Positions 6,926-56,653 of a stretch of 64,000 nucleotides of DNA are shown here, piece by piece; position 1 is the stretch's first letter, and each line of letters starts with the position of its first letter. Below the pieces are notes generated by a model, which was given only the letters and a program-made list of their open reading frames with translations, had not been told where the DNA came from and searched no databases. The position numbers and the translations under genes are program-made. This DNA comes from Porphyromonas cangingivalis. GTDB taxonomy: Bacteria; Bacteroidota; Bacteroidia; Bacteroidales; Porphyromonadaceae. The stretch lies in contig NZ_LR134506.1 of assembly GCF_900638305.1 (NCBI RefSeq), positions 2,108,001 through 2,172,000 on the forward strand, given 5' to 3'.

Positions 6926-7013
6926 ATGAGAAAAGGTCGTAGGATGGTCGAGATCAAGTTATACGACTTTCGTCATCGATCTTAACGACTTTCTTCATCG
7001 AGTCGTACGACTT
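6926..7013 (-). repeat. 22-bp tandem repeat, family 1, copy 1 (reverse orientation)
   Basis: Read on the minus strand, four consecutive 22-bp units (7013-6992, 6991-6970, 6969-6948, 6947-6926). The first unit begins AAGTCGTACGACT followed by CGATGA and matches the first good unit of copy 2 at 20 of 22 positions; the last unit is degenerate. Each unit holds a palindrome of the type AGTCGTACGACT. It is preceded on the minus strand by a run of A. Confidence 0.8.
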
Positions 7014-7035
7014 TTTTCAGTACGTCATATCCTCA

Positions 7036-7084
7036 AATAAAAGCCCCCCGCTTCGGTCGACGGTGATCGATCCGAAACGGGGGG
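7036..7084 (-). terminator. Terminator of the dxs-trkA-trkH-pdxH unit
   Basis: Arms at 7044-7056 and 7072-7084 (CCCCCCGCTTCGG with CCGAAaCGGGGGG), followed on the minus strand by CTTTTATTT. It is 77 bases after the pdxH stop. Confidence 0.75.
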
Positions 7085-7160
7085 ATACGGCGGTCCTAAT
7101 TCCCGTGCCTGGGGTGGGGACGTATGTGTGGCCTTGTTGTGTGTCTGTGTTGTTGCGAAC

Positions 7161-7805
7161 TTAGGGAGCAAGTCTGTCCAATGACCATGTGCCGTCGGCC
7201 TGCTTTTGGTATAGGAAGCGATCGTGCAGACGGCTTTCGCGACCTTGCCAAAACTCTATGCGAGACGGTTCGACGGCATATCCACCCCAGTTGTCGGGTC
7301 GGGGTACGGTGCGGCCGGTGTACTTGAGACTCTCTTTGACGAACTCCGACATGATGAACGTACGTGATGGTATGGGTTGGCTCTGTGGCGAGATCCTTGC
7401 ACCGACACGGCTTTTGTAGGGGCGTTGGGCGAAGTAGGCATCAGACACCTCGGGAGCGACACGACGGCAAATACCTTCGATGTGTATCTGACGCTCAAGT
7501 TGGTGCCAGAGGAAGGTGATGCAGACGTGAGGGTTCTCGGCGATGTGCTTACCTTTACGGCCTTCGTAGTTGGTGTAGAAGATAAATTGTCCGTCGTGGA
7601 TCTCCTTCAGCAAGAGCGTGCGAGAAGCAGGGCGACCCTGCGCATCGGCTGTAGCCAAGATGATGGCCGTAGGCTCAATGACTTGGAGACGGATGGCTTC
7701 GGCAAGCCACTCTTCGACTTTGACGATAGGATCGGCAGGCATATCGCTGCGAGAGAGACTGCCCACGGTGAAGTCTCTTCGTATATTCTGTATTTCGATA
7801 TCCAT
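7161..7805 (-). CDS. pdxH: Pyridoxamine 5'-phosphate oxidase
   Basis: FMN-dependent oxidation of pyridoxine or pyridoxamine 5'-phosphate to PLP, the last step of DXP-dependent vitamin B6 synthesis. At 214 residues it is the usual length. Visible are SRTLLLKEI, the FMN-phosphate block FYTNYEGRKGKHIAENP, VCITFLWHQLERQIHIEG, the helix with YFAQRPYKSRVGA, and the conserved C-terminal RLAP that closes the PLP site. It is the last gene of a minus-strand run after trkH (35-base gap). PLP made here could feed tryptophanase (58.4 kb), and pdxB of the same pathway lies at 55.4 kb. Confidence 0.97.
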   Translation of the reverse strand: MDIEIQNIRRDFTVGSLSRSDMPADPIVKVEEWLAEAIRLQVIEPTAIILATADAQGRPASRTLLLKEIHDGQFIFYTNYEGRKGKHIAENPHVCITFLWHQLERQIHIEGICRRVAPEVSDAYFAQRPYKSRVGARISPQSQPIPSRTFIMSEFVKESLKYTGRTVPRPDNWGGYAVEPSRIEFWQGRESRLHDRFLYQKQADGTWSLDRLAP

Positions 7806-7840
7806 GATTTGTTTGTATGGGTTTTATGTGGTTTGTTTCG

Positions 7841-9334
7841 TTAGCTGCGCCAGAAGCTGGGTAGGATGATGGTGAGGACGGTGAAGATCTCCAGACGTCC
7901 CATGACCATGATCACGCTGAGGAGGATCTTGGAGTGTGAGGAGAGGCTCGCAAAGTTGTTCACCGGACCGAAAGTGCCGATGCCCGGCCCTGTGTTCGAG
8001 ATAGAGGTCAAGGCAGCGGAGATGCTCTCCTCCACAGTGAAGCCATCCATGCTGACAATCACTGCGCCTATCATCATCAGGCAGAGGTAGGCGAAGAAGA
8101 AGGCCAAGACCTGATGGACGACCTTCCCGGGTATGGGGTGTCCGTCTATGCGGACGGGGAGCATGGCATTGGGGTGTGTGCGTTTGTGAAACTCGTTGCG
8201 GAGATTCTTGCCGAGGATGATGAAGCGTGCGACCTTGAGCCCCCCACTGGTAGAGCCGGCACAACCTCCGACAAACATCGCAAAGAGCATGACGAAGCTG
8301 AAGAAGGGGTACCAGTTGTTGTAGTCATCCAAGACATACCCCGTGGAGGTGATGATACTGACGATGTGATAGAATGCACCCCAGACCGCTTCGAAGAGAG
8401 TGGGCTTTACACCCTTGAAGAATAGGAACAACGATGCTATCAGCGTGAGTACACCGATGATGGCAAGGAAGGCTCTGAATTCGACATCCGTAAAGAGCTT
8501 GGCTCCTCTCCCTCTGAGCGCAAAGTAGAGGAGCGAGAAGTTGGTCGCCCCACAGAGCATGAAGATGACGGTGATGACCTGTATATAGAAGGAGTCGTAC
8601 GCTGCGATAGAAGCATTGCGAGGAGAGAAGCCTCCTGTGGAGATGCAGGTCGTGGCGTGACAGACGGCATCATAAAGTCCCATGGGGCCGGCCCAGAGGA
8701 GAAGGACACAGAGCATGCTCAGACCGACATAGATGAGTGAGACCCATTTCGCCATCATCCCCACTCGTGGCAGGAAGCGTTCGTGGGTGACACCTGTGGT
8801 CTCGCTATTGTACAGAAGTGAGGCACTGCCGCCCATGATGGGTACGAGTGCCACGACAAAGACGACGATCCCGATACCGCCGACCCACTGTGTCACACTT
8901 CGCCAGAAGAGGATGCTCCGAGGGAGGGCTTCGATGTCTGTGAGGATCGTCCCGCCTGTCGTCGTAAAGCCCGAGATGGTCTCAAAGAAGGCATCTGCAA
9001 AAGTTGGTACAAAATCCCCCAGCAGATAGGGCAACATCCCTATCAGTGAGACGACAAACCAACTCATTGCCACGCTCAACATCCCCTCTCTCCGTCCGGC
9101 ATTGTAGTCTTTGGCATTGCGCCCGATGAAGAGAAGGAGCAGTCCTACCACGGCCATCAGTCCTGCGGTGATCTCAAGCGGTCGCAGTCCTGCATCGTGA
9201 TAGTAGAGCGAGATGAGGATGGCAATGACCAAAAACGGGACTTGCATCGTACACAAGAAGCCCATCATCTTGGCGACGTAGCGATAGTTAAACTTCCTTG
9301 AGAATGAAGGGTTGTCAAATATCCGTTGTGGCAT
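7841..9334 (-). CDS. trkH: Potassium uptake channel subunit TrkH
   Basis: Membrane subunit of the Trk/Ktr potassium uptake system, 497 residues, multi-span. The four pore-loop filter motifs with the conserved T-G pairs are visible: GFTTTGGT, CISTGGFSP, ITSTGYVLDD and ISNTGPGIG. The basic loop RNEFHKRTHPNAMLPVRIDG lies before the last membrane pair. It partners with the cytosolic NAD-binding TrkA encoded 28 bases upstream. The C-terminus is short, as in the TrkH/KtrB branch. Confidence 0.96.
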   Translation of the reverse strand: MPQRIFDNPSFSRKFNYRYVAKMMGFLCTMQVPFLVIAILISLYYHDAGLRPLEITAGLMAVVGLLLLFIGRNAKDYNAGRREGMLSVAMSWFVVSLIGMLPYLLGDFVPTFADAFFETISGFTTTGGTILTDIEALPRSILFWRSVTQWVGGIGIVVFVVALVPIMGGSASLLYNSETTGVTHERFLPRVGMMAKWVSLIYVGLSMLCVLLLWAGPMGLYDAVCHATTCISTGGFSPRNASIAAYDSFYIQVITVIFMLCGATNFSLLYFALRGRGAKLFTDVEFRAFLAIIGVLTLIASLFLFFKGVKPTLFEAVWGAFYHIVSIITSTGYVLDDYNNWYPFFSFVMLFAMFVGGCAGSTSGGLKVARFIILGKNLRNEFHKRTHPNAMLPVRIDGHPIPGKVVHQVLAFFFAYLCLMMIGAVIVSMDGFTVEESISAALTSISNTGPGIGTFGPVNNFASLSSHSKILLSVIMVMGRLEIFTVLTIILPSFWRS

Positions 9335-9362
9335 ATCGTCCGATTTATCTTAGACTTGTGTG

Positions 9363-10706
9363 TTAAGCGAAGAGACTCCTGATCCGAGACATCGGTGTAT
9401 CGACACAGAAGATCATCACGACATCCTTGGGGCGGATGACCGTGTTACCATCGATGAGGATGGCCTGCCCTTCGCGCAAAAGACCACCGAGGGTGATGCC
9501 TTTGGGTAGTTTGAGGTCTTTCACCGGAGCCTTGGTGATCTTCGACGCCGGTGTGGCGACGACCTCCAACACATCTGCCTGACCGATGGAGAGACACTTC
9601 ACGTTGGTGACGTCGATATTGAGCAAATGGCGGAAGATGGATGCTGCGGCAAGGAGCTTTTTATTGATAAGGTTGCCGATGTCCATCTGTACCGCTATGT
9701 CGAGGTAGTCGATGTTTTCGATGCGAGCGACGGTACGGTAGACACCCATACGCTTTGCCGCCACGGTCGCCAGCATGTTGGCTTCCGAATTGGCCGTGAG
9801 GGCAAGGAATGCCTGCGAAAGCTCGATCCCCTCCTCCTTGAGGAGTCGAGGGTCTCTTGCATCACCGTTGATCACCATGACATTGCTCGGAGCCGCATCT
9901 ATAAGGCGTTTGCAGTGGTCGTGATCAAGTTCGATGATCTTGATCTTGAAGTCCGATGGCAGGAGTTCGGCCGCACGTAGCGCGATACGGCTCCCACCCA
10001 TGATGAACACCTTCTTGACCTGTATGTCCTCCTTCCCACAAAACTGTCGCACGGTGTCTTTATCCTCCGGAGCGCACGTAAAGAAGACGATGTCTCCGGC
10101 TTGTATGATGTCGGCACCCGTAGGTATGATGGTGTGGTATAGTCTCCGTACCGCCACGATGTGGAAGAGCTTCGTCTCCAGATCTCCCAACTCGTACAGA
10201 TGTCGCCCCACAAGTCTTGAGTGGGGCTCGATCTTGACGGCGATAAGATCAAGTTTGCCATCGAAGAGGCTCCAGTACTGACGCGTCCAAGGCAACTTCA
10301 GTCCCGAGGCGATCTCTTTCGCCGCCAGGAGCTCGGGATAGACCATGTCGTCGATACCGAGAGAAGCGAGGAACGCCTTCTTGTCCGGCTGGAGGTATTC
10401 GTTGTTGTTGATGCGTGCCATGGTCTTTTTCGCACCCAACTTCGATGCCAAGATGCACGCCACGACATTCATACTCTCCTCGGGGGTGACACTGATGAAG
10501 AGTTCGGCCTCTCCGGCACCCGCCATGGCGAGAGCCTTCATCGAGGTCGGATTGCCGAGCACAGGCATGATGTCGAAGTTGTCATCGTGCGCAAACTCCA
10601 GCCGCTTGTGGTCGTTGTCCAAGAGGACGATGTCGTGATTTTCGGTCGAAAGTAGTTTGGCAAGGTGGGTGCCGACCTCTCCCGCACCTGCTATGAGTAT
10701 CTTCAT
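9363..10706 (-). CDS. trkA: Trk potassium transporter regulatory subunit TrkA
   Basis: Cytosolic gating subunit for TrkH. The 446-residue protein has two RCK_N/RCK_C tandems. The first Rossmann fold has a perfect IAGAGEVGTHLAKLL and acidic LLDND; the second starts VFIMGGSRIALRAAELL and lacks the canonical GxGxxG, so it probably binds nucleotide weakly or not at all (inference). The start is set at 10706 (MKILIAGAGEVG) because the open frame upstream lies inside dxs. Its ATG comes one base after the dxs stop, a tight coupling. Confidence 0.95.
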   Translation of the reverse strand: MKILIAGAGEVGTHLAKLLSTENHDIVLLDNDHKRLEFAHDDNFDIMPVLGNPTSMKALAMAGAGEAELFISVTPEESMNVVACILASKLGAKKTMARINNNEYLQPDKKAFLASLGIDDMVYPELLAAKEIASGLKLPWTRQYWSLFDGKLDLIAVKIEPHSRLVGRHLYELGDLETKLFHIVAVRRLYHTIIPTGADIIQAGDIVFFTCAPEDKDTVRQFCGKEDIQVKKVFIMGGSRIALRAAELLPSDFKIKIIELDHDHCKRLIDAAPSNVMVINGDARDPRLLKEEGIELSQAFLALTANSEANMLATVAAKRMGVYRTVARIENIDYLDIAVQMDIGNLINKKLLAAASIFRHLLNIDVTNVKCLSIGQADVLEVVATPASKITKAPVKDLKLPKGITLGGLLREGQAILIDGNTVIRPKDVVMIFCVDTPMSRIRSLFA

Positions 10707-10707
10707 T

Positions 10708-12618
10708 TTAGTTTGTTCGAGCGTTTTGCAATATCTCCAGAGCCTTCGTTTCCATACTCCGGACATCCAGACCGCAGTGTTCGTGCTGGATGTCCACACG
10801 ACCCTGCTTGACAAAAGTATCCGGTATCCCCCATCGTGTCACAGGGACGATGGCACCATGTGTCGAGAAGAGCTCCAGCACAGCACTCCCCATGCCACCC
10901 ATGAGCGCACCATCCTCGATGGTGATCACGTGCTTGTAGGTCTTCGTGAGTCCAAGTAGCAACTCCTCATCCAAGGGCTTGACAAATCTGAGGTTGACGT
11001 GTCCCGGGTCATATCCTTTTTCGACAAGGTTGCTGACCACCTTAGACACCTCGCTCCCGAGAGGTCCATAGCTCACGAAGACGATGTCACTGCCTTGTCG
11101 CTTGATCTCGGCCTTACCGAGTGGCAACTCTCTGAATTCCGTGCGCCAATGTGGACAAGACCCCGTACCTCTCGGATAACGGATGACGAAAGGCCCTTCC
11201 TCGTGGTGCTTGTACGCCGTGTACATCATCATCCTGAGCTCCTCTTCGTCGTATGGAGACATGAGGGTAAGTCCTGGGATACATCTCAGGTAGGGGATGT
11301 CGTACACCCCATGATGTGTCATGCCGTCTTCGCCCACAAGTCCTCCTCTGTCGAGGCAGAAGATCACGGGTGCCGACTGCATTGCGGCATCGTGGATGAC
11401 TTGGTCGTAGCCTCTCTGCATAAAGGACGAGTAGACATTGCAGAACGGTATCGCCCCCTGCAGTGCCATCCCTGCCGAGAAGGTCACGGCATGACCCTCG
11501 GCGATCCCCACATCGAAGCTCCTGTCGGGGTACTTCTTCATGAGATAAGTCATCGAGCACCCCGAAGGCATTGCCGGAGTGACCCCCACGACCCTCTCAT
11601 CCATGTCTGCCAGCTCCACAAGGGTATGACCGAAGACATCCTGGAACTTCATCGGATCATCCGGAAGAGGCACTTTGGCCTTGATCTGTCCCGTCTCCAC
11701 ATCGAAGCACCCCGGAGCGTGCCAGACGACGGCACTCTCTTCGGCAGGGGCATAGCCTTTGCCCTTTACGGTCTGAATGTGAAGGAGCTTGGGGCCATCG
11801 AAGTCCTTGATGTCTCGGAGGACACGGACGAGTCCCTGGACATCGTGCCCATCGACAGGTCCTATGTATCTGATGCTGAAGCCCTCGAAGAGGTTATGTC
11901 TGTCGCTGAGGAGGGCTTTGAGGCTGTTGTTGAATCTAAGGATGCTTGATCTGCGCTTTTCGTCGATGAGGTTAAGGTTTTTGAGCGTCTTGTAGCCCTC
12001 ATGGCGCACCTTATTGTACGTCTTGCTCGTGATGATGTCGACGAGATAACGGCTGAGTGCACCGGTGCTCTCATCTATGGACATGTTGTTGTCGTTGAGG
12101 ACGATAAGGAGGTTGTTGGGGTGTGTGCAGGCATTGTTGAGCCCTTCGAAAGCAAGTCCGCCCGTCATGGCACCATCACCGATGACCGCCACGACCTGAT
12201 TGTCCTTGCCCGCCAAACGATCCGCCACAGCCAGGCCAAGTGCCGCCGAAATGGAGTTGGAGGCATGTCCCGCCACAAAAGCATCGTACTCACTCTCCGC
12301 AGGGTGGGTAAAGCCACTGAGCCCACCCCACTTGCGCAAGCTGTGGAAGTTGTCCCTGCGCCCCGTGAGTATCTTGTGCGGATAAGCCTGATGTCCCACG
12401 TCCCAGACCAGCTTATCATCCGGCAGGTCAAAGACATAGTGGAGTGCCACAGTAAGCTCCACGACCCCGAGCCCTGCGCCCAAGTGACCGGGATTGCGGC
12501 TCAGTTCGTCCAACAAGAATGTCCGTATCTCTGCGCACAACTCGGGGAGCTGTTCCTCTTTCAGTTGCTTGAGATCTTTAGGGCTGTTGATATGGTATAA
12601 GTACTTATAATCCTTCAT
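10708..12618 (-). CDS. dxs: 1-deoxy-D-xylulose-5-phosphate synthase
   Basis: Thiamine-diphosphate enzyme condensing pyruvate and glyceraldehyde 3-phosphate to DXP, the precursor of MEP-pathway isoprenoids, PLP and thiamine. At 636 residues it is typical. Visible: [17 protein letters not shown], the ThDP/Mg motif GDGAMTGG ... LNDNNMSI, the second half [31 protein letters not shown] and the C-terminal transketolase domain. It heads a minus-strand unit with trkA, trkH and pdxH; pairing with pdxH is metabolically sensible since DXP is a PLP precursor, while trk genes next to dxs suggest a housekeeping operon. Confidence 0.98.
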
Positions 12619-12670
12619 TTACGATACGCTGTGAGGTTCTTTTAGTGTATCAAGCATTCTATTTTAATTG

Positions 12671-12702
12671 CAAATGTACCCAATTCCGCCCAATCTTGAC
12701 AA
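12671..12702 (-). promoter_or_regulatory. Promoter of dxs
   Basis: Minus strand: TTG (12700-12702), 21-base spacer, TACATTTG (12671-12678). The dxs ATG follows about 50 bases downstream. Confidence 0.6.
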
Positions 12703-12889
12703 TGATAACACCCTCAATCGCAAATATCCACACCGAGATCCCCTCGTGTCTGTGCTAATTGGCAGTTGTTCAGATAATTTCATAGGGATCGTAGTGCCCT
12801 TTTTACAGCCTTCTCACTTGTGAAAGCCTCGACACGCCACATGCTAACGGTCGACAGAAAACATTCCGATTCGAAACGACATCATGAGA

Positions 12890-12919
12890 CTTGAAAAAGC
12901 GATAATTATTGTATATTTG
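12890..12919 (+). promoter_or_regulatory. Promoter of the TM2-domain gene
   Basis: CTTG (12890-12893), 18-base spacer, TATATTTG (12912-12919); the ATG is 42 bases downstream. Confidence 0.65.
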
Positions 12920-12960
12920 AGCCAAATTAATAATACAAAATCTAAACACCCAACACGATT

Positions 12961-13305
12961 ATGGATGTCGAAAAAGTAGACCAATATCTGATGATGTCTG
13001 CGAAGTTTTTTCCTGAAAACCAGCTCCCGTTCATCAGGCAAGCCCTCCTTGGTGCCAATGAAGCACAGTTCAGCAACGTACAGTTTTTGCAGTACAAAGA
13101 CCCCACGATAGCACTCATCTTGTCACTCCTTGCCGGCACTCTCGGTGCAGACCGCTTTTATCTCGGACAGGTAGGATTGGGTCTGCTCAAACTATTCACC
13201 TGCGGAGGTGCGACCTTGTGGGCATTGGTGGACATCTTCCTCATCATGGGTACGACAAAGGAAGAGAATATGGCGAGGCTCTTTCAGGTGCTTCATCTCA
13301 GGTGA
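12961..13305 (+). CDS. TM2-domain membrane protein
   Basis: A 114-residue protein. A short cytoplasmic-looking N-terminus (about 45 residues) is followed by the TM2 domain: KDPTIALILSLLAGTLGADRF, then FYLGQVGLGLLKL and a second helix ending DIFLIMG. The G-x-DRFYLGQ motif between the two helices is diagnostic. Function in bacteria is not established; it is a small two-helix membrane protein. The next gene (DUF2752) starts at a GTG overlapping this stop codon (GTGA), and these two families often occur together. Confidence 0.9.
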   Translation: MDVEKVDQYLMMSAKFFPENQLPFIRQALLGANEAQFSNVQFLQYKDPTIALILSLLAGTLGADRFYLGQVGLGLLKLFTCGGATLWALVDIFLIMGTTKEENMARLFQVLHLR

Positions 13306-13718
13306 GCCCACGTCGCTTTTATACCTTTGCCATCATACTCTTCGGGGGAGCTTATCTATGGCTTTGGAAGGTCGGGGGGAGTGAGTCCTCGGGCGGTGTG
13401 TTTTGCTGGTTCAGACGCTTGTTCGAAGTGCCTTGCCCCTCCTGTGGCTCTACACGAGCCGTGCTGTCCGCATGGGATGGTCACCTGCTCGAAGCATTGA
13501 AGCTCAATCCTTTGGGGGTGCTGTATCTGGTGCTTCTCATCGTGTTTCCACTCTGGCTCTTGTGGGATTTGCTCTCTCGCAAGCGTACGATGTACCGCAC
13601 ATACGACAGATGTGAGATCTTGCTGGGGCGTAGACCGGTGCTGTATGCCGTCATTGCACTCATCCTCATCAACTGGGGCTGGGTACTGTACAACCACTTT
13701 TCACACACTTCACTCTGA
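13302..13718 (+). CDS. DUF2752 membrane protein
   Basis: A 138-residue protein when started at the GTG at 13302, which overlaps the TM2 stop (GTGA, translational coupling); the open frame upstream of it is inside the TM2 gene. It has about three membrane helices and the DUF2752 signature CPSCGSTRAVLSAWDGHLLEALKLNP, whose start lies near residue 40. The CPxCG cysteines are reminiscent of a metal or redox site, but the function is unknown. A coupled TM2-DUF2752 pair suggests a shared membrane role (inference). Confidence 0.88.
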   Translation: MSPRRFYTFAIILFGGAYLWLWKVGGSESSGGVFCWFRRLFEVPCPSCGSTRAVLSAWDGHLLEALKLNPLGVLYLVLLIVFPLWLLWDLLSRKRTMYRTYDRCEILLGRRPVLYAVIALILINWGWVLYNHFSHTSL

Positions 13719-13757
13719 ACTCTCTTTCGGCTCGTGCCATTTTTACCCATTCGGGTA

Positions 13758-13788
13758 TTGTGGGGAGGATGGTGTTTGCATACTTTTG
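13758..13788 (+). promoter_or_regulatory. Promoter of the transglutaminase-like gene
   Basis: TTG (13758-13760), 20-base spacer, TACTTTTG (13781-13788); ATG 28 bases further at 13816. Confidence 0.6.
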
Positions 13789-13815
13789 CGTCAAAATCTA
13801 ATTAATGTATCGAAT

Positions 13816-14733: not shown

Positions 14734-14758
14734 CCGCAGATCAAGATACACCAAGATG

Positions 14759-14803
14759 CAGGCGACGGTAGGGCTCGATGCTCTGCTGTCGCCTGTCTTG
14801 TTT
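14759..14803 (+). terminator. Hairpin after the transglutaminase-like gene
   Basis: Stem CAGGCGAC (14759-14766) with GTCGCCTG (14788-14795), followed by the moderately T-rich TCTTGTTTG. Confidence 0.5.
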
Positions 14804-14815
14804 GAGCGGATTTTG

Positions 14816-14823
14816 TATCTTTG
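14816..14823 (+). promoter_or_regulatory. -7 element of the nitroreductase gene
   Basis: TATCTTTG fits TAnnTTTG; the ATG lies 34 bases downstream. The -33 element is not clear. Confidence 0.5.
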
Positions 14824-14857
14824 TGTCAATGTTGTACAATAAAATGGATATAAAATA

Positions 14858-15409: not shown

Positions 15410-15491
15410 AAGAGGTTTCGGGGCGATCGGCTCATCATGGGCGAACCCCTACGAAGATCTCAATAAGTGACACCATAATACCTCGTACCGT

Positions 15492-15914: not shown

Positions 15915-15945
15915 GTCCGCCGTCCCCTGCATACAAGTAAATCAC

Positions 15946-15987
15946 CAAGGGCGGTACCGACACTCTCGAATGTCGGTATCGCCCTTG
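15946..15987 (+). terminator. Hairpin terminator after DUF2721
   Basis: A 17-bp stem (15946-15962 with 15971-15987, one mismatch). The T tract is weak (TTGATG), so its strength is uncertain. Confidence 0.6.
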
Positions 15988-16029
15988 ATGTATCCGTATG
16001 ACTTTAGGTGTAAGGCGATCGCTCCCCAA

Positions 16030-16113
16030 AAGTCCATGGAAGCGATAAAACAAGTCTTACGACTCGATGACGAAAGTCGTAAGGATCGATGAAACAAGTC
16101 CTACGACTTTTTT
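16030..16113 (+). repeat. 22-bp tandem repeat, family 1, copy 2
   Basis: Units at 16030-16051, 16052-16073, 16074-16095 and a last partial unit 16096-16113 that ends CTACGACTTTTTT. Every unit begins AAGTC. The two middle units contain TACGACT or GTAAG halves that pair as CTTACGACT/AGTCGTAAG. The 404-base gap 15915-16318 holds only this repeat, the preceding hairpin and the next promoter. Confidence 0.85.
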
Positions 16114-21889: not shown

Positions 21890-22106
21890 GCAATAGTCCC
21901 GAAACCTCCGTTCAGCATCGTTCGATTAAAGAACTCTGATCGAAGTGTGTACAAACGTGGAGAAAGCGGCTCAATTCTGTTTTTTCTCGACTCGCTCCCC
22001 ATGGTAATGGGGGCAAAAAGTCGTAAGATTTGATTTCTACTCTCGGATGAGAGGTCTTTTTGATGCAAATATGGACGAGAGCCATCCTTAGTTCGGACAT
22101 GTTTTA

Positions 22107-36544: not shown

Positions 36545-36632
36545 GACAGAACATATTCCGGACAACGACAGAATGTATTCTGTCCCGTAATAGAAAACAT
36601 TCTGTCCCACGACAAAAACAAATTCTAAGAGA
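36545..36632 (+). repeat. 22-bp tandem repeat, family 2, copy A (inside an operon)
   Basis: Four consecutive units (36545-36566, 36567-36588, 36589-36610, 36611-36632). The second unit contains the palindrome GACAGAAT-gt-ATTCTGTC; the fourth is degenerate. Unit 2 matches the second unit of copy B at 18 of 22 positions. It lies in the 215-base gap between the MMPL and LolA-like genes. Confidence 0.8.
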
Positions 36633-47476: not shown

Positions 47477-47509
47477 TATCAGTACGATGTAGGTTCTGAA
47501 AAAGTCAAT

Positions 47510-47550
47510 AAAAAATCCCCCGAAGGTGTGGTTTTATTGGCCTTCGGGGG
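47510..47550 (-). terminator. Terminator of the metal-efflux operon
   Basis: Stem CCCCCGAAGG (47517-47526) with CCTTCGGGGG (47541-47550), followed on the minus strand by ATTTTTTATT. It lies 24 bases after the TolC-family gene's stop. Confidence 0.8.
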
Positions 47551-47573
47551 AAACGAAATTAAGAGTTTTTACG

Positions 47574-48752: not shown

Positions 48753-48762
48753 GAGTGGGAGA

Positions 48763-51700
48763 TTATTCGGTTATCGATTCAGTCTTCTTACCGGTCATGA
48801 GGTACATGATCGGGATGATGAATCCATTGAGGAATGTCGATGTCAGCAGGCCTCCGAGGATGACCTTTGCCATAGGGCTTTGGATCTCATTGCCCGGCAG
48901 GTCACCTCCGAGAGCGAGAGGGATGAGGGCAAGGCCTGAGGTGAGGGCTGTCATGAGGATGGGGTTGAGTCGGTCGAGCGAGCCTGCCATGACACTTTCT
49001 CGGATACTCAACCCTTCGGATCTCAGGTCGTTGTACCTCGATATGAGCAGCATCCCATTGCGTGTGGCGATGCCGAAAAGCGAGATGAACCCGATGATGC
49101 CCGGTATGCTCAGTACACCTCCCGTGAGCGCGATGGCACAGACTCCTCCGATGAGTGCGAGAGGAAGGTTGAGGATCACAACGAGGGACTGAGATACGCT
49201 CTTAAACTGACTGAAGATGAGCATGAAGATGACCAAGATCGAGAATATCGATGTGATGAAGAGGGTGCGGGATGCAGCTTGCTCGCTCTCAAACTGTCCT
49301 CCATACTCGATGTGGTAACCTTCGGGAAGTGTGATCTCCTCGTCGATGGTGCGTCGGATGTCTTCGACGACACCACGGAGATCACGCCCGGAGACATTGG
49401 CAGAGATGACGATCTTGCGCATGACATTCTCACGGTTGATGGTATTGGGCCCTGTCGAAGATGTGATCTTCGCAACATCGGAGAGAGCCACCTTGCGATC
49501 TCCTGCATCGATCAGCAGGTCTTTGATCTTGTCCATCGACTCCCGTCCGGTATCTTTCACTTTCAATGTAAGGTCAAAGGATCGGTTCCCTTCGTACACT
49601 TGAGAGACCACCTCTCCTGCCAAGAGTACCTTGACGATGTCCGCAAAGTCCGGTAGGGAGATGCCGTACTTCGCCAAGAGCTCACGGCGTGGCTCGATCT
49701 TGAGTTGGGGGCGTTCGACCTGTTGTTCGACATTTAGGTCTGCGATCCCCCTGATGTCTTGGATGGACTCTTTGATCTCGTTACCGAGGCGGAACATATG
49801 GTTGAGGTTCGAGCCGAAGAGCTTGATGGCTATGTTTGCTTTGGTGCCTGACAGCATCGCATCGATACGGTGCGAGATGGGCTGACCGATCTCGATGTTT
49901 ACGCCGGGTAGGGCAGACAACTTTTCGCGCACTTCTTCGACCATCTCGTCCTTCGATCTCTTGTCGAGGACAAATGGAGCCTCGATTTCAGAAGCATTGA
50001 CCCCGAGGGCATGCTCATCGAGTTCGGCACGACCGGTCTTTCGTCCCACGGTCTGTATCTCGGGTATCGAAAGGAGCAGTTCTTCGGTGATACGTCCCAT
50101 CTTGTCCGACTCTTCGAGGGATATCCCCGGCAACGTGCTGACATTGATGGTGAGCGAACCCTCGTTGAACGCAGGCAAGAAGCTGCGTCCAAGGGAGAAG
50201 AAGACAATGAGTGTCAGCACAAGCACTAACCCTGTCCCACCGAGCACCCAACGTCGGTGGATGAGAGTCCAGGATAATGCTCGTCGATAGACACTTTTGA
50301 GTCTGCGTGCCACAAATGGCTCTTTGTCATCTTTTTCGCTGTTTCTCGGATTGCCGAGCAGGTAACTGCACAGCACCGGGGTGAGAGTGAGTGCCACCAA
50401 GGTGGAGGCTATGAGCGCGACGATGAAAGCCACACCCAATGGTGCAAGCATCCTGCCCTCCATCCCGGAGAGAAAGAAAAGGGGCACGAAGCTGGCGATG
50501 ATGATGAGGGTCGAATTGAGGATCGGCATACGCACCTCTTTCGATGCCTCGAAGACGACGGTAAGCACCGGTAGTTGTTCGCTCTTGGGCTTGTGTCGGT
50601 TTTCTCTCAGTCGTTTGAATACATTTTCGACATCCACGATGGCATCATCGACGAGAGAGCCTATGGCAATAGCCATCCCCCCGAGACTCATCGTGTTGAT
50701 CGTCAACCCCATGATTTTGAGCGCAAGGATCGAACAGAGTAAGGCAAGAGGGATAGTGATCAGAGAGATTGTTGTCGTGCGGACATTCATCAGGAAGATG
50801 AAAAGTACGATGATGACGAATATCCCTCCCTCGTAGAGAGACTTCTTTACGTTGTCGATCGAACTATCGATGAATCTCGCCTGACGGAAGACATCGGTCG
50901 ATATCTTGATGTCCGAAGGTAGGCTATGTCGGAGCTCTTCAAGAGAGATGTCCAGCTGCTTTGTCAGATCCAAGGTGCTCGAAGCCGGCTGTTTCGTCAC
51001 CGTGATCAGGACTGCCGGCTTGGCATCATTCGAAGCCACCCCCAACCTTGGAGCTTTGTCGCCTATCCGTACCTCTGCAATCTCTTCAAGCAGAAGTGGT
51101 GAATTGTTTACGCTTTTCACAACTGCTTTTCCCAGCTCTTCGGCCTTGTTGGTCGAGAGCATCCCACGGATGATGTACTCATTCCCATACTCATACAATA
51201 TGCCTCCGGCAGCGTTTTGGTTCATCTCCTTGACCACCGGCAGTACTTCATCGAGAGCCACACCAAAGTGCTTCATCCGCTCCGGATCGAGGAGGATCTG
51301 ATACTCCTTGATCTCTCCACCGATGACTGCGACTTGTGCCACACCACCCGTAGACAGGAGACGAGGTCGTATTGTCCAGTCCGCTATCGTTCGCAGTTCT
51401 TGCAACGAAGTCTTTTCCGAAGTCAGTCCTATGATCATCAGTTCGCCAAGGATCGAAGACTGAGGACCGAGTGTCGGGTTGCCCACGTTTGAAGGCAGGG
51501 CATCACGGATCACGGCGAGCTTCTCCGAGACAATCTGTCGTGCCCGATAGATGTCCGTCCCCCAGTCAAACTCGACCCAGACGATCGAAAACCCGGTCGT
51601 CGACGACGAACGCACACGGCGCACATCTGTCGCTCCATTGAGAGCCGTCTCGACCGGGAAAGTCACCAAGTACTCGACCTCCTCCGGTGCCATGCCCGTG

Positions 51701-51858
51701 GCCTCTGTCATCACCACCACGGTAGGGGCATTGAGGTCGGGGAATACATCTACCTCCATATTCGTTGCGGTGTAAGTCCCCACGATCATCAACAGCACAG
51801 CCGCTCCCAGTACGATCAAGCGATTGTGGAGCGAAAAGTGTATGATTTTGTTCAGCAT
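48763..51858 (-). CDS. CzcA/CusA-family heavy-metal efflux RND pump
   Basis: 1031 residues with the standard RND plan of two membrane blocks and two large periplasmic domains. N-terminus HFSLHNRLIVLGAAVLL, then VDVFPDLNAPTVVVMTEA, TFPVETALNG and SSSTTGFSIVWVEF, all typical of the TIGR00914 metal pumps. The proton-relay helix IGSLVDDAIVDVENVFKRLR has the Asp, Asp and Glu of CzcA. The exported metal (Co, Zn, Cd, Cu or Ag) cannot be read from this alone. The gene lies 21 bases after the adaptor. Confidence 0.94.
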   Translation of the reverse strand: MLNKIIHFSLHNRLIVLGAAVLLMIVGTYTATNMEVDVFPDLNAPTVVVMTEATGMAPEEVEYLVTFPVETALNGATDVRRVRSSSTTGFSIVWVEFDWGTDIYRARQIVSEKLAVIRDALPSNVGNPTLGPQSSILGELMIIGLTSEKTSLQELRTIADWTIRPRLLSTGGVAQVAVIGGEIKEYQILLDPERMKHFGVALDEVLPVVKEMNQNAAGGILYEYGNEYIIRGMLSTNKAEELGKAVVKSVNNSPLLLEEIAEVRIGDKAPRLGVASNDAKPAVLITVTKQPASSTLDLTKQLDISLEELRHSLPSDIKISTDVFRQARFIDSSIDNVKKSLYEGGIFVIIVLFIFLMNVRTTTISLITIPLALLCSILALKIMGLTINTMSLGGMAIAIGSLVDDAIVDVENVFKRLRENRHKPKSEQLPVLTVVFEASKEVRMPILNSTLIIIASFVPLFFLSGMEGRMLAPLGVAFIVALIASTLVALTLTPVLCSYLLGNPRNSEKDDKEPFVARRLKSVYRRALSWTLIHRRWVLGGTGLVLVLTLIVFFSLGRSFLPAFNEGSLTINVSTLPGISLEESDKMGRITEELLLSIPEIQTVGRKTGRAELDEHALGVNASEIEAPFVLDKRSKDEMVEEVREKLSALPGVNIEIGQPISHRIDAMLSGTKANIAIKLFGSNLNHMFRLGNEIKESIQDIRGIADLNVEQQVERPQLKIEPRRELLAKYGISLPDFADIVKVLLAGEVVSQVYEGNRSFDLTLKVKDTGRESMDKIKDLLIDAGDRKVALSDVAKITSSTGPNTINRENVMRKIVISANVSGRDLRGVVEDIRRTIDEEITLPEGYHIEYGGQFESEQAASRTLFITSIFSILVIFMLIFSQFKSVSQSLVVILNLPLALIGGVCAIALTGGVLSIPGIIGFISLFGIATRNGMLLISRYNDLRSEGLSIRESVMAGSLDRLNPILMTALTSGLALIPLALGGDLPGNEIQSPMAKVILGGLLTSTFLNGFIIPIMYLMTGKKTESITE

Positions 51859-51879
51859 GATATGGTCAGATTTTGGAGG

Positions 51880-53109
51880 TTAATGACTATGACCATGAGG
51901 GATGACCGAAGATGTCGCTGCCAGCTTCACCTGATATACCCCTCTTGTCACGACCTCGTCCCCTTCGTTGAGCCCCGAGAGGATGTGTACACGATTCCCA
52001 TCGCACTGTCCGAGTGTCACCTCCAGCTTTCGGTAGTGCCCTTCGTTGAGACGGACGTAGACGAAGTGCAGACCCTGCTCCTCGGTGATCGCGCTCATGG
52101 GTACCGACAATACATCGCTCAGAGAGCCACCGAGGAGATATACCTCTGCGAAGGAGCCCGGTACGAAGTCTGCCCCGATGTTGTCAAACTCAAATGTCAC
52201 CGGAATGAGAAAAGAACTTTGCCCTACATCCTTGCCATGCGAAAGCAATCGGCCATTCAAATCTGCCAACCGGTACACCCCCTCGTCATAAGATGGTCGG
52301 AAGTTAGCTCCCGATATGCCCCTTATGGCCTTGTAATGCCTCTCTGACACTTCTGCACGAAGGTGCAATTTGCGGTTTTGAGAAACTGTTGCGATGGCTT
52401 GCCCCACGGAGACATACTCTCCGTGTGAGACGAGTCTGTTCTTGAGGAAGCCCGAGATCGGAGCCGTGATGACGACACCGTGGGGTGTCACCGCGGTGGA
52501 CTGTTCTTGATAGGCATTCTTTGTCGTTTCGTAGCGCAGTCTGATCTGTTCGAAGTCCTTTGTGGAGATGATCTTATCCTGTACCAAACCCTCCGCACGC
52601 TCATACTCCTTGAGCGCAGTCTCATACTCCGCTTTGGCTCTGACGAAAGGGTCACCGTCCAAGAGCTTTTTGCCCGAAATCGTCACAAGGCTCTGCCCTG
52701 CTTGGATCGAAGCTCCTTCGGTCAGTGATTTGTGGGGGAAGGTCACGATGCCGTTCGAAGTCGCCACGACAGTGATCTCATCTCCTTGGGCGGGAAGTAT
52801 CTGCCCGCTCGTCTTGATCACGCAGGCGAAGTCTCCGCGTGTGACCGTTTCGGTCTCCAGACCTATGAGTTCGGCCTGTGCTTCCGAAAACTCGATCGCA
52901 TCCGTCAGATCTATCTCCTCGTGATTGTGATCACAGTTCCCTTCATCATGATCGTGCGAGTGCTCGTGCTCTTTCGAGTGATCATGATCGTGTTCGTGCG
53001 CATCGGTGACAGATGTGTGTGTGGCATCGGACAGTTTTCCCGATGATGAATTACATCCGGTCATGATTATGCCCAATGCTGTCAGCAGGGTCAGTGTATA
53101 TGTTTTCAT
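51880..53109 (-). CDS. Periplasmic adaptor (CzcB/CusB-like) lipoprotein with His-rich patch
   Basis: 409 residues from ATG 53109; the open frame upstream has no signal-like start. Lipoprotein signal with ALGIIMTGC. After the lipidated Cys there is a very His-rich segment (about residues 33-65; 14 or more His mixed with Asp and Glu, e.g. HEHDHDHSKEHEH), likely to bind metal ions. The MFP/HlyD body follows: GQILPAQGDEITVVATS, lipoyl-like halves, the hairpin KAEYETALKEYERAEGL and the barrel with GHYRKLEVTLGQCDGNRV. It bridges the CzcA-type pump and the TolC-type channel. Confidence 0.93.
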   Translation of the reverse strand: MKTYTLTLLTALGIIMTGCNSSSGKLSDATHTSVTDAHEHDHDHSKEHEHSHDHDEGNCDHNHEEIDLTDAIEFSEAQAELIGLETETVTRGDFACVIKTSGQILPAQGDEITVVATSNGIVTFPHKSLTEGASIQAGQSLVTISGKKLLDGDPFVRAKAEYETALKEYERAEGLVQDKIISTKDFEQIRLRYETTKNAYQEQSTAVTPHGVVITAPISGFLKNRLVSHGEYVSVGQAIATVSQNRKLHLRAEVSERHYKAIRGISGANFRPSYDEGVYRLADLNGRLLSHGKDVGQSSFLIPVTFEFDNIGADFVPGSFAEVYLLGGSLSDVLSVPMSAITEEQGLHFVYVRLNEGHYRKLEVTLGQCDGNRVHILSGLNEGDEVVTRGVYQVKLAATSSVIPHGHSH

Positions 53110-53237
53110 TGTTGTTGGGGTTAGGTGTGGGTACGATGGATCTACCGATCCGAATAGACACAAAGTGCCATGCCGATATGGTCATCTGCATAGCAAACGA
53201 AAAGCACTCATGCCTCAACTATGAAGCAAGTAGCACC

Positions 53238-53681
53238 TTACACTAACCCAAAAGGAGGAGCACGCAACCCCTGTGGGGCATCTACATCTGCGGAGATATA
53301 ATCCCCCTGTCGGTCATCGGGATGTCTTGAGGGAAGGGGGGAGGAGTCGTCGAAGTTGAGCAGATCGGCGACAATGAAGCAGAGTGGATAGTGAGAGATC
53401 AGGTCATGCCCACAGTCGACCGACTGTAAGGCTTTGTATAGGGGTTCGTTATCCAAGTGCGCAACGAAGAGTGCATCCTCAATGATACACGAGCCGTCCT
53501 CATGCCCTGTACAGCCGTCATGTCCATGGTCGTGGTGACCCTCACAACAAACCTTGGCTCCCTCGCACACCTCCATTGTCAAGCAAGGCATCCCACCATG
53601 GTGATGGTGAGGCACGACGGCAAATATCAGCAGTAACACCACCGATATGAGGATGAAAGGTATGGAGATGATACGTCTCAC
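53238..53681 (-). CDS. Small His/Cys-rich exported protein (DUF6769-like), first gene of the metal-efflux operon
   Basis: 147 residues if started at GTG 53681, where a signal-like stretch VRRIISIPFILISVVLLLIF begins; longer starts at 53726 or 53741 are in frame but lie upstream of the predicted transcription start. After the signal comes VVPHHHHGGMPCLTMEV, then CEGAKVCCEGHHDHGHDGC, a dense His/Cys motif that looks like a metal site. I recall a DUF6769-like family of this shape beside such pumps, but could not check it. Probably a periplasmic metal-binding accessory protein. It is 128 bases before the adaptor gene. Confidence 0.72.
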   Translation of the reverse strand: MRRIISIPFILISVVLLLIFAVVPHHHHGGMPCLTMEVCEGAKVCCEGHHDHGHDGCTGHEDGSCIIEDALFVAHLDNEPLYKALQSVDCGHDLISHYPLCFIVADLLNFDDSSPLPSRHPDDRQGDYISADVDAPQGLRAPPFGLV

Positions 53682-53704
53682 TTGGCACTTCTTTTTGATA
53701 CGAA

Positions 53705-53740
53705 CAAAGATAAGATAAATTTTCATGCAACAGTGTTGCA
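53705..53740 (-). promoter_or_regulatory. Regulated promoter of the metal-efflux operon with palindromic operator
   Basis: Minus-strand TATCTTTG (53705-53712). Upstream of it, at 53726-53740, is the perfect palindrome TGCAACA-c-TGTTGCA, covering the -33 region, with a poor -33 box (TTG, spacing 15). Typical of a metal-responsive repressor or activator site. Confidence 0.6.
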
Positions 53741-53760
53741 ATGTTTTTTCTCTGCCCGGG

Positions 53761-53826
53761 GACAGAATGCGTTCTGCTCTCTGAAAGAATGTTTTCTGTC
53801 CCTCGACAGAAAACCGGAAGTCCTTG
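53761..53826 (+). repeat. 22-bp tandem repeat, family 2, copy B
   Basis: Three units (53761-53782, 53783-53804, 53805-53826) with palindromic parts GACAGAATgcgTTCTG and GAATGttTTCTGTCCC. It is in the gap between the divergent metal-efflux operon and the glutaminyl cyclase gene. The third unit is degenerate. Confidence 0.78.
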
Positions 53827-53907
53827 ATCCTTTATATGGAGCATTGCGTGTACGGTGGATCTCTGAGTCCGGCTGTCATTTTGCCCCTCCGAGTGACAAG
53901 AATATGT

Positions 53908-53915
53908 TATCTTTG
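53908..53915 (+). promoter_or_regulatory. -7 element of the glutaminyl cyclase gene
   Basis: TATCTTTG (TAnnTTTG), 36 bases before the ATG at 53952. Confidence 0.5.
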
Positions 53916-53951
53916 CCCCATGATAAGATCACTAAAAGACAATGTAACAGT

Positions 53952-54962
53952 ATGAAACCACTTTATATGCTCTTCCTTCTGACGGCATTGACGGCCTGTG
54001 GCGGACAGAAAAATGCCAAGAAGACCACCGAGACCCGGGAGACAGAGACAAGAGTCGCCGAGGCATCGCCTTTCAGTGCCGACTCTGCCTACCTACATAT
54101 CAAGAGACAAGTAGACTTCGGCCCTCGTGTGCCCAATACTCAGAGTCACAGAGCTTGTGCCGATTATCTTGCCTCTGCTCTCGAAGCTCAAGGGCTCACG
54201 ATGTATGTGCAGGACGTCGATGTCACCGCTTATGACGGTACCATCCTCAAGGCAAAGAACATCATCGGGGTGCACAATCCCGAGGCCAAGAGACGTATCC
54301 TCCTTTTTGCTCACTGGGATACACGTCCCATGGCGGATCACGACGGCGATAAGTCGAAAAGAGACCTCCCCATCGATGGTGCCGATGATGGCGGCAGTGG
54401 TACCGGCGTCCTCTTGGAGATCGCACGTCTCCTGCGTCTCCATCCGATGAAGAATATAGGTATAGATATCGCCCTCTTTGATGCCGAGGATTATGGTGCG
54501 CCCGAGCACGCCAATTACAGCGGAGAGAGTACTGTCACTTGGGCTTTGGGCACACAGAAGTGGACGCAGAGTCCCCATGTCCCCGGCTATCGTGCAGACT
54601 TCGGTATCCTGCTTGACATGGTGGGATCGAAGGGTGCGACCTTCTATCGTGAGTATTTCTCTCAAGAGTCTGCCGGTAAGACGGTCACAAAGATATGGGA
54701 CACCGCACGTCGTCTCGGACATCAGGAGTACTTCATCAACGAGATGGGGGGAGCGGTGACGGATGATCACTACTTCGTCATCCGCAACCTCGGTATCCCT
54801 TGTGTCGACATCATCAACTTCAAGCCCGATACCCACAATGGCTTCGGTGCTTACTGGCATACCCACGACGACAACATGAGCATCATCGACCGTGCCCCAC
54901 TCAAGGCCGTGGGCGAAACCGTATGGCAGGTGCTCCTCGACTATGACAACAGTATCAAATAA
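53952..54962 (+). CDS. Glutaminyl-peptide cyclotransferase, M28-type lipoprotein
   Basis: 336 residues from ATG 53952 with a lipoprotein signal (LFLLTALTAC). Converts N-terminal Gln to pyroglutamate; homologous to the glutaminyl cyclase known from P. gingivalis. Landmarks: FGPRVPNTQSH, ILLFAHWDTRP (zinc site region), GADDGGSGTGVLLEIARLL with the metal Asp, IALFDAEDYG (catalytic Glu), GGAVTDDHYFVIRNLGIP (His ligand) and YWHTHDDNMSIID. The enzyme would act at the envelope. The gene heads a run with sufE (6 bases later) and pdxB. Confidence 0.93.
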   Translation: MKPLYMLFLLTALTACGGQKNAKKTTETRETETRVAEASPFSADSAYLHIKRQVDFGPRVPNTQSHRACADYLASALEAQGLTMYVQDVDVTAYDGTILKAKNIIGVHNPEAKRRILLFAHWDTRPMADHDGDKSKRDLPIDGADDGGSGTGVLLEIARLLRLHPMKNIGIDIALFDAEDYGAPEHANYSGESTVTWALGTQKWTQSPHVPGYRADFGILLDMVGSKGATFYREYFSQESAGKTVTKIWDTARRLGHQEYFINEMGGAVTDDHYFVIRNLGIPCVDIINFKPDTHNGFGAYWHTHDDNMSIIDRAPLKAVGETVWQVLLDYDNSIK

Positions 54963-54968
54963 ATCAAT

Positions 54969-55397
54969 ATGAACACGAAGCAAATCAACGAAATACAAGA
55001 CGAGATTGTAGAGGAGTTTTCATTCCTCGATGACTGGATGGACAGATATCAGATGATCATCGACATGGGCGATACCCTCCCTGATATGCCTGAATCCGAT
55101 AAGGTCCCTGAGCACATTATCGAAGGGTGTCAGAGCCGTGTGTGGATCACCGCTCGTGCCAACGAAGACGGATCTCTGCACTTCGAAGCTGCGAGTGATG
55201 CCGTCATCGTCAAGGGGATCATCGCCATGCTCCTCAAGGTGGTCAATGATCAGAAGCCTACCGACATCTCTTCGGCCGAACTCTACTTCATCGACAAGGT
55301 CGGCTTGAAAGAACACCTTTCGCCTACACGCTCGAACGGTCTCCTTGCGATGGTAAAGCGTATCAAGGCTTACGCACACGCTGCACAGACAAAGTGA
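54969..55397 (+). CDS. sufE: SufE-family cysteine desulfurase activator
   Basis: 142 residues. Accepts sulfur from SufS and passes it to the SUF iron-sulfur scaffold. Signature: EIVEEFSFLDDWMDRYQMII, then the active Cys in IEGCQSRVW, and GIIAMLLKVVN. The length and single Cys site are typical. Its stop codon overlaps the start of pdxB (TGATG). The SUF core genes are not in the window. Confidence 0.96.
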   Translation: MNTKQINEIQDEIVEEFSFLDDWMDRYQMIIDMGDTLPDMPESDKVPEHIIEGCQSRVWITARANEDGSLHFEAASDAVIVKGIIAMLLKVVNDQKPTDISSAELYFIDKVGLKEHLSPTRSNGLLAMVKRIKAYAHAAQTK

Positions 55398-56509
55398 TGA
55401 AGCCCCTCAAGATCATTGCCGAACACTCCGTCCCTTACCTCCGTGGGGTGATCGAATCACTGGGGGAGGTCACCTACCTCCCTTCGTCGGACTTTACCCC
55501 GGAGGCTGTACGTGATGCCGACTGGCTCATCGTCCGAAGCATCACGAAGTGTTCGCGTGAACTCTTGACCGGCTCTCGTGTACGCCTCATCACGACGGCA
55601 ACGATAGGCTTCGACCACATCGACACAGAGTACTGCGATGCTGCGGGGATCACGTGGCGCAATGCTCCCGGATGCAACGCCGAAGCCGTGGGGCAGTACT
55701 TTGCCGGTGTGATCGCTTCGCTCGTCACCGAGACCGGATTTTACCCCAAGGGGAAGGTGCTCGGCATCGTCGGAGTCGGTCATGTCGGGACGGTGGTGAA
55801 GAGGTATGCCGAGGCTTTCGGTATGGTCTGTCTCCTCAACGACCCACCACGAGCGGAGAGAGAGGGAGACGAGGGTTTTGTCTCTCTCGAAGAAATAGCT
55901 TCCCGATCCGACATCATCACACTGCACACCCCACTCACCAAGTCGGGGGCGCATCCGACCTATCATCTCTTCGATAAGGCTCTCGTGGCACGCCTTGGGC
56001 GCAAACCTGTGGTCATCAACGCCTGCCGTGGTGGCGTGACAGACACCGAGGCTCTTCTGGACGGCTTGGCGACGGGAAGGATCGATAGGGTGATCATCGA
56101 CTGTTGGGAGGGTGAACCACACATTTCTATTGCATTGCTTGATAGGGCTTTCATCGGCACGCCCCACATCGCGGGCTTCTCTGCTGACGGCAAGGCCAAT
56201 GGCGCAAGGATGTGCGTCGAGGCAGGGATGAAGTTTTTCGGTATCGACCGACCTGACATCCTCTCGCCGATGTCGCCCCCTGCACCTCTGCACCCCGAGA
56301 TAGATATGTCTCAGTGGAGCGAAAACGCTCTTTTCGAAGCCATCCTCAAGACCTTCGATCCTCGTAAGGTGGACGGCGATCTGAGAGCAGGCTATACGGA
56401 CTTCGAGTACCTTCGCAAGACCTACGACTATCCGCGTGAGCCTCACGCCTATACCCTTGTCCATGCGACAGAAGGACAACGCAAGGCCTTCGACCGGCTC
56501 TTGCCCTGA
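55397..56509 (+). CDS. pdxB: 4-phosphoerythronate dehydrogenase
   Basis: 370 residues from ATG 55397 (shares one base with the sufE stop). Oxidises 4-phospho-D-erythronate in DXP-dependent PLP synthesis. D-2-hydroxyacid dehydrogenase fold: ATIGFDHIDTEYC, NAPGCNAEAVGQY, Rossmann GIVGVGHVGTVVKRYAEAFG, the Arg-containing NACRGGVTDTEALL, DCWEGEPHISIALLD and the catalytic His in GTPHIAGFSADG. The extra C-terminal region (from about 280) is the PdxB dimerisation part that separates it from SerA. PLP-pathway partner pdxH is at 7.2 kb. Confidence 0.95.
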   Translation: MKPLKIIAEHSVPYLRGVIESLGEVTYLPSSDFTPEAVRDADWLIVRSITKCSRELLTGSRVRLITTATIGFDHIDTEYCDAAGITWRNAPGCNAEAVGQYFAGVIASLVTETGFYPKGKVLGIVGVGHVGTVVKRYAEAFGMVCLLNDPPRAEREGDEGFVSLEEIASRSDIITLHTPLTKSGAHPTYHLFDKALVARLGRKPVVINACRGGVTDTEALLDGLATGRIDRVIIDCWEGEPHISIALLDRAFIGTPHIAGFSADGKANGARMCVEAGMKFFGIDRPDILSPMSPPAPLHPEIDMSQWSENALFEAILKTFDPRKVDGDLRAGYTDFEYLRKTYDYPREPHAYTLVHATEGQRKAFDRLLP

Positions 56510-56569
56510 GTCTCCGATACATACACATTACCCACAGTCTCTCTTTATCCTCCATACAAAAAAGCGTAG

Positions 56570-56653
56570 AAGCCACGAAAAAAAGTCGTTTGACTCGATG
56601 ACGAAAGTCCTTGGACTCGTTGCATCAAGTCAAACGACTTTTTTCGTGGCTTC
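56570..56653. repeat. 22-bp tandem repeat, family 1, copy 3, forming a long bidirectional hairpin
   Basis: Units at 56583-56604, 56605-56626 and 56627-56644. Each starts AAGTC, and the first matches copy 2's unit at 19 of 22. The array is embedded in a longer inverted repeat: GAAGCCACG (56570-56578) plus A-run and AGTCGTTTGACT match the complement AGTCAAACGACT, T-run and CGTGGCTTC (to 56653). Its right arm includes the stop codon of the minus-strand gene. It sits between convergent pdxB and the cardiolipin-synthase-like gene and probably ends both transcripts. Confidence 0.85.

Follow-up and report, generated by a model that had tools for sequence, protein, structure and literature searches.

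Repetitive extragenic palindromic (REP) elements and bacterial interspersed mosaic elements (BIMEs) are dispersed intergenic imperfect palindromes which occur clustered and in mixed orientation, and REP units are linked to a transposase of the Y1 (RAYT) type. Iterons and phased operator arrays are tandem protein sites about two helical turns apart, the iterons lying at a replication origin. Here we describe arrays of 22-bp units, named family F1, from a stretch of 64,000 nucleotides of the Porphyromonas cangingivalis chromosome (the window, positions 2108001-2172000 of a genome made up of a single contig of 2,404,857 bases). F1 is like REP and BIME in that it consists of dispersed intergenic imperfect palindromes, clustered and in mixed orientation, and unlike them in its exact 22-bp register; we know of no REP element with a dyad register of this kind. 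The spacing is similar to that of iterons, but the arrays are found in about a hundred chromosomal gaps and not at one origin, and no initiator or other protein is linked to them, no search for a binding protein having been made. REP elements are named in a review (PMC10969869).

The nearest published element is BrickBuilt, a miniature inverted-repeat transposable element (MITE) of P. gingivalis with homologues in P. gulae. Its description (PMC4596501) gives 19 copies, strictly intergenic, with 1 to 22.8 repeats of 23 nt per element, a leader (at most 285 nt), a tail (at most 318 nt) and, as terminal repeats, sequences of the IS5 type such as GAGACCTTTGCA. F1 likewise is a dispersed, intergenic tandem repeat of about two turns in a defined element with many copies per genome, and it differs in its unit of 22 bp, in having usually four slots, found in both orientations, in its A6GTC and GACT6 ends without leader or tail, and in its number of sites, which is at least 96. 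Since the spacing is 22 and multiples and not 23, and since the flanks, almost without information, hold no leader or tail with IS5-type terminal repeats beyond the A6GTC and GACT6 ends, we do not file the arrays as a BrickBuilt member; they are similar in kind. The same paper mentions 22-nt tandem direct repeats in P. gingivalis W83 (PMC4596501), the exact locations of which were not identified; the unit length and the genus are the same as here. The abstracts and passages of the literature searched hold no description of these arrays as a class.

Family F1 in P. cangingivalis

An earlier reading of the window, made from the letters alone (the sequence-only reading), claimed three sites with tandem units of exactly 22 bp outside genes. 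The three arrays are present, none of them within a predicted gene of the window, and their limits could be refined to 6930-7017, 16026-16113 and 56579-56644. All are members of family F1, the element of which is 88 bp long with four 22-bp slots. Two of them, both on the minus strand, have this full form: the element at 6930-7017, with a near-invariant A6/T6 end at 7012-7017 (model match at genome positions 2114931-2115017, 73.3 bits), and the element at 16026-16113, with mixed slot orientations (2124028-2124113, 62.4 bits). The third, on the plus strand at 56579-56644, is a short inverted form of 66 bp with a T1 end on both sides.

A genome-wide scan with the 19-base F1 unit AAGTCGTACGACTCGATGA, allowing up to three mismatches, gave 40 + 54 = 94 matches, and the reversed control gave 0 + 0. 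A model built on sequence only from 53 F1 elements gave 161 matches with E values of 0.1 or below. Merging the best 150 of these leads to at least 96 F1 sites in the 2.40-Mb genome, which is a lower bound because 150 of 1015 candidates were scored. F1 palindromes no more than 100 b apart (n=179 distances, with duplicates removed) were spaced by 22 in 89 cases, by 44 in 56, by 66 in 14 and by 88 in six, and the other distances shown occurred once each; these distances, and those for the second family below, were taken from the fetched loci, which include one 3-kb locus from another genome (L069). Thus neither of the two outcomes that the sequence-only reading named as speaking against it, an absence of further copies and a loss of the 22-bp period, was found.

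For the anatomy of the element 64 match clusters were used; two lay within genes and were set aside as chance matches, leaving 62 elements. The near-invariant end is AAAAAAGTCGT, and the two ends of the element are A6GTC and GACT6. In the alignment (A2) of 53 of the 62 elements slot 1 (AAAAAAGTCGTNNGAYTYGATG) is near invariant and slot 4 (..TCCTANGACTTTTTT) is weaker. The edges are sharp: in 46 elements, of which three or more were wrongly oriented, the adjoining 30 b on each side carry almost no information. Slots 2 and 3 are found in both orientations and the dyad centre stays in register: in 59 elements (three without clear orientation were left out) the patterns of slots 1-3 were +++ 32 times, ++- 15 times, +-- seven times, +-+ four times and -++ once. 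Longer elements gain whole slots, as in L028 with nine units and L062 with five. Within arrays the identity of the variable core dinucleotide is 0.585, against 0.284 when shuffled. The sites thus lie in helical register with dyads that are free in orientation, a trait of protein-binding arrays.

The 22-bp period beyond F1

A second family, F2, has the unit GACAGAA-N4-TTCTGTC and is found genome-wide, also with a period of 22. It is unrelated to F1 in sequence; by eye only the period and the dyad are shared. The F2 core pattern gave 80 + 104 matches in the genome and 17 + 12 in the controls; the pattern is nearly palindromic, so that some places are counted on both strands. The distances between F2 units (n=102, duplicates again removed) were 22 in 51 cases, 44 in 26 and 66 in four, with any other distance at most twice. 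Two F2 arrays lie in the window, both on the plus strand, at 53761-53811 and at 36545-36606, the latter with three units starting at 36545, 36567 and 36589. Clustering of the two families was not seen among the roughly 100 of 184 F2 matches that were listed, three F1 sites being within 600 b of an F2 cluster where 3.4 are expected. No third 22-bp family was found in the loci of P. cangingivalis by scans that are insensitive, F2 itself being caught at lag 22 only seven times.

The relatives were searched with a lag scan, which assumes no motif and asks for identity over 40 bases at a given lag (27/40, 25/40 or 24/40). Each of the nine Porphyromonadaceae genomes from which at least 40 kb was sampled, P. 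cangingivalis among them, had lag-22 arrays. At 27/40 the lag-22 places numbered seven in each of G002, G006 and G014, five in G009, four in each of G003, G024 and G028, and four in the window; the commonest lag in these samples was 22 (tied with 44 in G003), and shuffles of the samples gave 0. In the nearest relative, G001, 50 of the 242 gaps of at least 100 b had lag 22 at 25/40 and seven had lag 44, the remaining lags from 12 to 45 having a mean of 0.6 and a maximum of 2; the loose array test behind this gap list also flagged at least one P. cangingivalis gap without an array (window 59784-60008). Short pieces of 32 genomes of the family (247 kb, some sampled before) put lag 22 first, with eight places in seven genomes. 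By eye the units of the relatives look unrelated, with the exception of G001, where the F1 scaffold is present around a changed core.

In other Bacteroidales no lag-22 arrays were found in G037 (40 kb), G043 (40 kb), G044 (60 kb) or G059 (15 kb). There was one weak lag-22 place in 60 kb of G042, the shuffles of which gave six matches over all lags, and two lag-22 copies in 15 kb of G038 were rejected as a genome-wide family (three matches against one in the control). The arrays are therefore likely to be limited to Porphyromonadaceae, a statement which rests on little sequence. Three pieces of G042 (L219-L221), which belongs to another family of Bacteroidales, have many lags of 18, 36 and 45 bases. 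The F1 sequence itself is at control level elsewhere: in a comparison where the pattern had 163 matches in the P. cangingivalis genome, 28 of 60 other genomes had 1 to 3 matches and the reversed control had 0 to 3, and a degenerate 30-base F1 pattern had no match in a named genome collection, which may exclude P. cangingivalis.

The G006 unit has 363 matches in G006 and no match in six other genomes; for the G002 unit the counts are 414 in its own genome and 0 to 2 in each of six more. The G001 unit occurs at 328 places in G001 and at 0 to 2 in five other genomes; in P. cangingivalis its core has 24 matches (control 3), at least three of which are ordinary F1 units. A few P. cangingivalis arrays still have the core of the G001 type, which was noted at genome positions 208204, 1464271, 1465852, 1557918 and 2225130. 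The G001 family and F1 have in common the A6 end, the linker and the 88-bp layout, which in G001 carries the core GTTGTCTAAC (68 T1-anchored rows). The core is what differs, AAGTC..GACTT in F1 and AAGTT..AACTT in G001, so both arms have changed together.

One period is kept in two unrelated families and in relatives with other cores, and therefore something would seem to measure about two helical turns; this suggests that the spacing is measured while the sequence changes quickly. It had been argued from the length of 22 bp in the sequence-only reading that protein sites would face one side of the DNA, and the second family and the other species strengthen that argument. The interpretation we favour, and to which we give an even chance of being correct, is that each F1 element is a platform with about four sites, all on one DNA face, for a putative dimeric DNA-binding protein, and that the elements were spread and homogenised in a REP- or MITE-like manner. 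An element would consist of about four quasi-palindromic sites with their dyad centres exactly two helical turns apart, so that four dimers could sit side by side on one face. The elements would be tolerated in intergenic DNA and would be copied and homogenised over the chromosome like REP or MITE; they would grow and shrink by whole 22-bp steps, and single slots would flip in register. Between species the recognised core would change genome-wide and the spacing would stay, a sister species keeping the scaffold of end and linker. We infer that the protein reads the arrays, is a dimer, binds in phase on one face and helped to spread or homogenise the elements. Such a platform may be of use to the host, perhaps architecturally or as an insulator between transcription units, or it may mainly serve itself. 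The iteron-like protein-binding array and the mobile-like repeat, both put forward as possible roles in the sequence-only reading, are compatible with the evidence.

Placement, folding and neighbours

With genes called by our own script, F1 is strictly intergenic and dispersed; one of the 62 elements (L037) overlaps a called open reading frame by more than 40 b, and the overlap sits at the 5' end of the frame, where the choice of start is uncertain. Of the 57 elements with a called gene on both sides (five lacked one on one side) 20 are in divergent, 30 in codirectional and seven in convergent gaps. The codirectional elements with clear orientation (n=28) are found 13 times with and 15 times against transcription, and the median distance is 115 b to a gene 3' end and 225 b to a gene start. 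The 50 array gaps of G001 are divergent in 15 cases, codirectional in 29 and convergent in six, where the shares of gap length predict about 13, 34 and 3. There is accordingly no enrichment at gene ends: the position next to operon ends given in the sequence-only reading fits the three window sites loosely and fails in general.

It could be proposed that the elements are bidirectional intrinsic terminators, in which an A6...T6 hairpin stops transcription from both sides. The ends AAAAAAGTC...GACTTTTTT would allow this, the array at 56579-56644 lies between convergent genes, and the six convergent array gaps in G001 exceed the three or so expected by length. The three F1 arrays of the window also fold better than shuffles on five of six strands (z -2.6 to -11.1; the sixth -1.05), though shuffling destroys the tandem repeat as well. 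Intrinsic terminators are expected at gene 3' ends and oriented with transcription, and the positions and orientations above show neither, in P. cangingivalis or in G001; the median of 115 b to the 3' end argues in the same direction, and by eye pdxH has a separate hairpin between itself and its array. Within F1 units 89.2% of the cells are paired with no covariation (two double changes, 6.8 when shuffled), so a hairpin kept by compensatory change is not seen, and the two ends, with 66.6% of cells paired over 14 column pairs, show no covariation either (14, 13.0 when shuffled). On placement, orientation and covariation termination is rejected as the general function, and the proposal is quite improbable. 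As to the terminator-like hairpins suggested from the sequence, the single site 56579-56644 does fold into a very strong hairpin (RNA fold of 56564-56658, -50.4 and -55.0 kcal/mol on the two strands, z -9.0 and -11.1).

In other families the arms were also compared. They covary at one core position in the G001 units (paired 0.50, expected 0.36) and at three positions in G028 (17 units), which either a hairpin or a dyad recognised by a dimer would be expected to show. In G006, G002A, G014 and G009 most variable positions are at or below the covariation expectation, and the F1 and F2 rows of this table are noise (lax thresholds, 999 and 360 matches).

The array at 56579-56644 is inverted, its arms 56579-56600 and 56623-56644 having a complementarity of 95%. 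Around it, at 56569-56653 and without strand, is a locus-specific perfect 15-bp inverted repeat (GAAGCCACG... / ...CGTGGCTTC), the arms of which (56569-56583 and 56639-56653) are 100% complementary. G001 has two short inverted arrays of the same form (L271:8539 and L311:4072), and in the three cases 9 to 11 of the 12 flanking bases continue the inverted copy. The outer, locus-specific repeat looks as if copying overran the end of the array. Short inverted forms with an outer inverted repeat are what hairpin template switching would be expected to make. One may hypothesize that the arrays as a whole are a neutral by-product of replication, slippage expanding quasi-palindromes and hairpin template switching flipping and homogenising them, with no protein and no transposition. 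Such a process would agree with the three double-T1 arrays, the homogenisation within arrays, the flips in register and the length changes by whole units. It leaves unexplained that one core is found at a hundred loci per genome and that the period is fixed across unrelated cores, and we regard it as improbable.

The neighbour of the first array is pdxH (pyridoxamine 5'-phosphate oxidase, TIGR00558) at 7161-7805 on the minus strand. The hairpin between the two, GC-rich and with an A/T run, lies 3' of pdxH at 7035-7084 on the same strand; it was seen by eye and is not in the output of the hairpin scan, which has a loop limit of 8. On the other side is the gene for 6S RNA (Bacteroidales-1, RF01693, 85 bits) at 6575-6761, minus strand, and the array sits upstream of the 5' end of this RNA. 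The convergent neighbours of the third array are pdxB (55394-56509, plus strand) and cls (cardiolipin synthase, 56652-58136, minus strand). Cls has 74% identity with its nearest named relative, which belongs to Porphyromonas. A single F1-like unit with four mismatches of 17 was noted at 22018-22036, without a detected array.

Persistence, mobility and significance

The persistence of array sites was analyzed in 0.92 Mb of G001, in gaps beside orthologues of the genes which flank P. cangingivalis arrays. An array (lag 22, 24/40) was present in 14 of 28 such gaps, where length-matched gaps give an expectation of 6.5 (P about 0.001, 3000 draws). At one 3-kb locus (L152/L304), 88% identical between the two genomes, arrays are found at the same place, with the F2 core in P. 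cangingivalis and a different core in G001. For three of 99 P. cangingivalis arrays the gap was anchored in G001 through the DNA at either side, and one of these gaps holds an array. The excess over length-matched gaps is weaker against a small direct control, so it is suggested, and not shown, that array sites persist between the two species.

This direct control is one of several results that count against the elements being protein platforms with a kept spacing. Among 19 orthologues of P. cangingivalis gaps where no array was detected, 6 have one as well, and the difference from 14 of 28 is not significant (Fisher P 0.24, from a nearly identical table). Two of the three anchored elements (L028 and L037) are absent in G001. 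Pieces of G009 and G014 (L203, L204, L207 and L210) carry in addition arrays with a 21-bp lag, so the period is not 22 everywhere. Pairs in register are poor for the rough G009 pattern (5/31) and middling for G014 (12/24), G024 (26/39) and G001 (195/253). Finally, the protein that would bind the arrays is putative, and its existence is something we infer.

The two elements absent in G001 would also agree with a selfish repeat of the MITE or REP type, in which a transposase acting in trans moves the 88-bp element by its ends, the inner 22-bp repeat being an incidental minisatellite and no host protein taking part. The same can be said of the at least 96 dispersed copies, of the sharp edges and flanks almost without information, of an intergenic occurrence roughly proportional to gap length in G001, and of the near-identical pair L050/L051, in which 78 of 84 bases are alike and the flanks mostly different; in P. 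gingivalis BrickBuilt is an example of this kind (PMC4596501). A target-site duplication was not noticed by eye, in the absence of a systematic test, and at the two sites empty in G001 the divergence is too great for a close alignment. No Y1 (REP-type) transposase (PF01797) was found in the genome (0 of 1; other transposase families were not searched), and 5 of 14 control genomes were positive, so a REP/RAYT system was rejected. An incidental repeat furthermore leaves unexplained why F1, F2 and the unrelated families of other species have one period, and taken together we find a purely selfish repeat rather unlikely. A parent transposon with terminal arrays was also rejected, the only close group of sites (1780283-1781822) being a 770-bp tandem gene duplication with a truncated array. 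A small predicted gene, membrane-like by eye, lies in this duplication together with the truncated F1 array (L056, genome 1780918-1782400).

The interpretation of the elements as platforms for a dimeric protein can be widened to the family, and this we propose tentatively, as a possibility and no more probable than that. Porphyromonadaceae may have a fast-evolving protein-DNA system in which one or more paralogous dimeric DNA-binding proteins read arrays of about four dyads, two helical turns apart, at around a hundred or more intergenic sites in each genome, the spacing being kept and the core replaced genome-wide, partly in place. Eukaryotic satellites, which turn over along with their binding proteins, offer a likeness. 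If the elements are selfish, they would be an element class spread over a bacterial family. Either way they occupy a considerable fraction of the longer gaps between genes, as the 50 of 242 gaps of at least 100 b in the G001 sample indicate. Should a protein read the period, the arrays would offer a natural experiment on how a bacterial DNA-binding protein and its hundred or so sites in each genome evolve together, and P. cangingivalis and G001 are close enough for the change of core to be followed at single sites.

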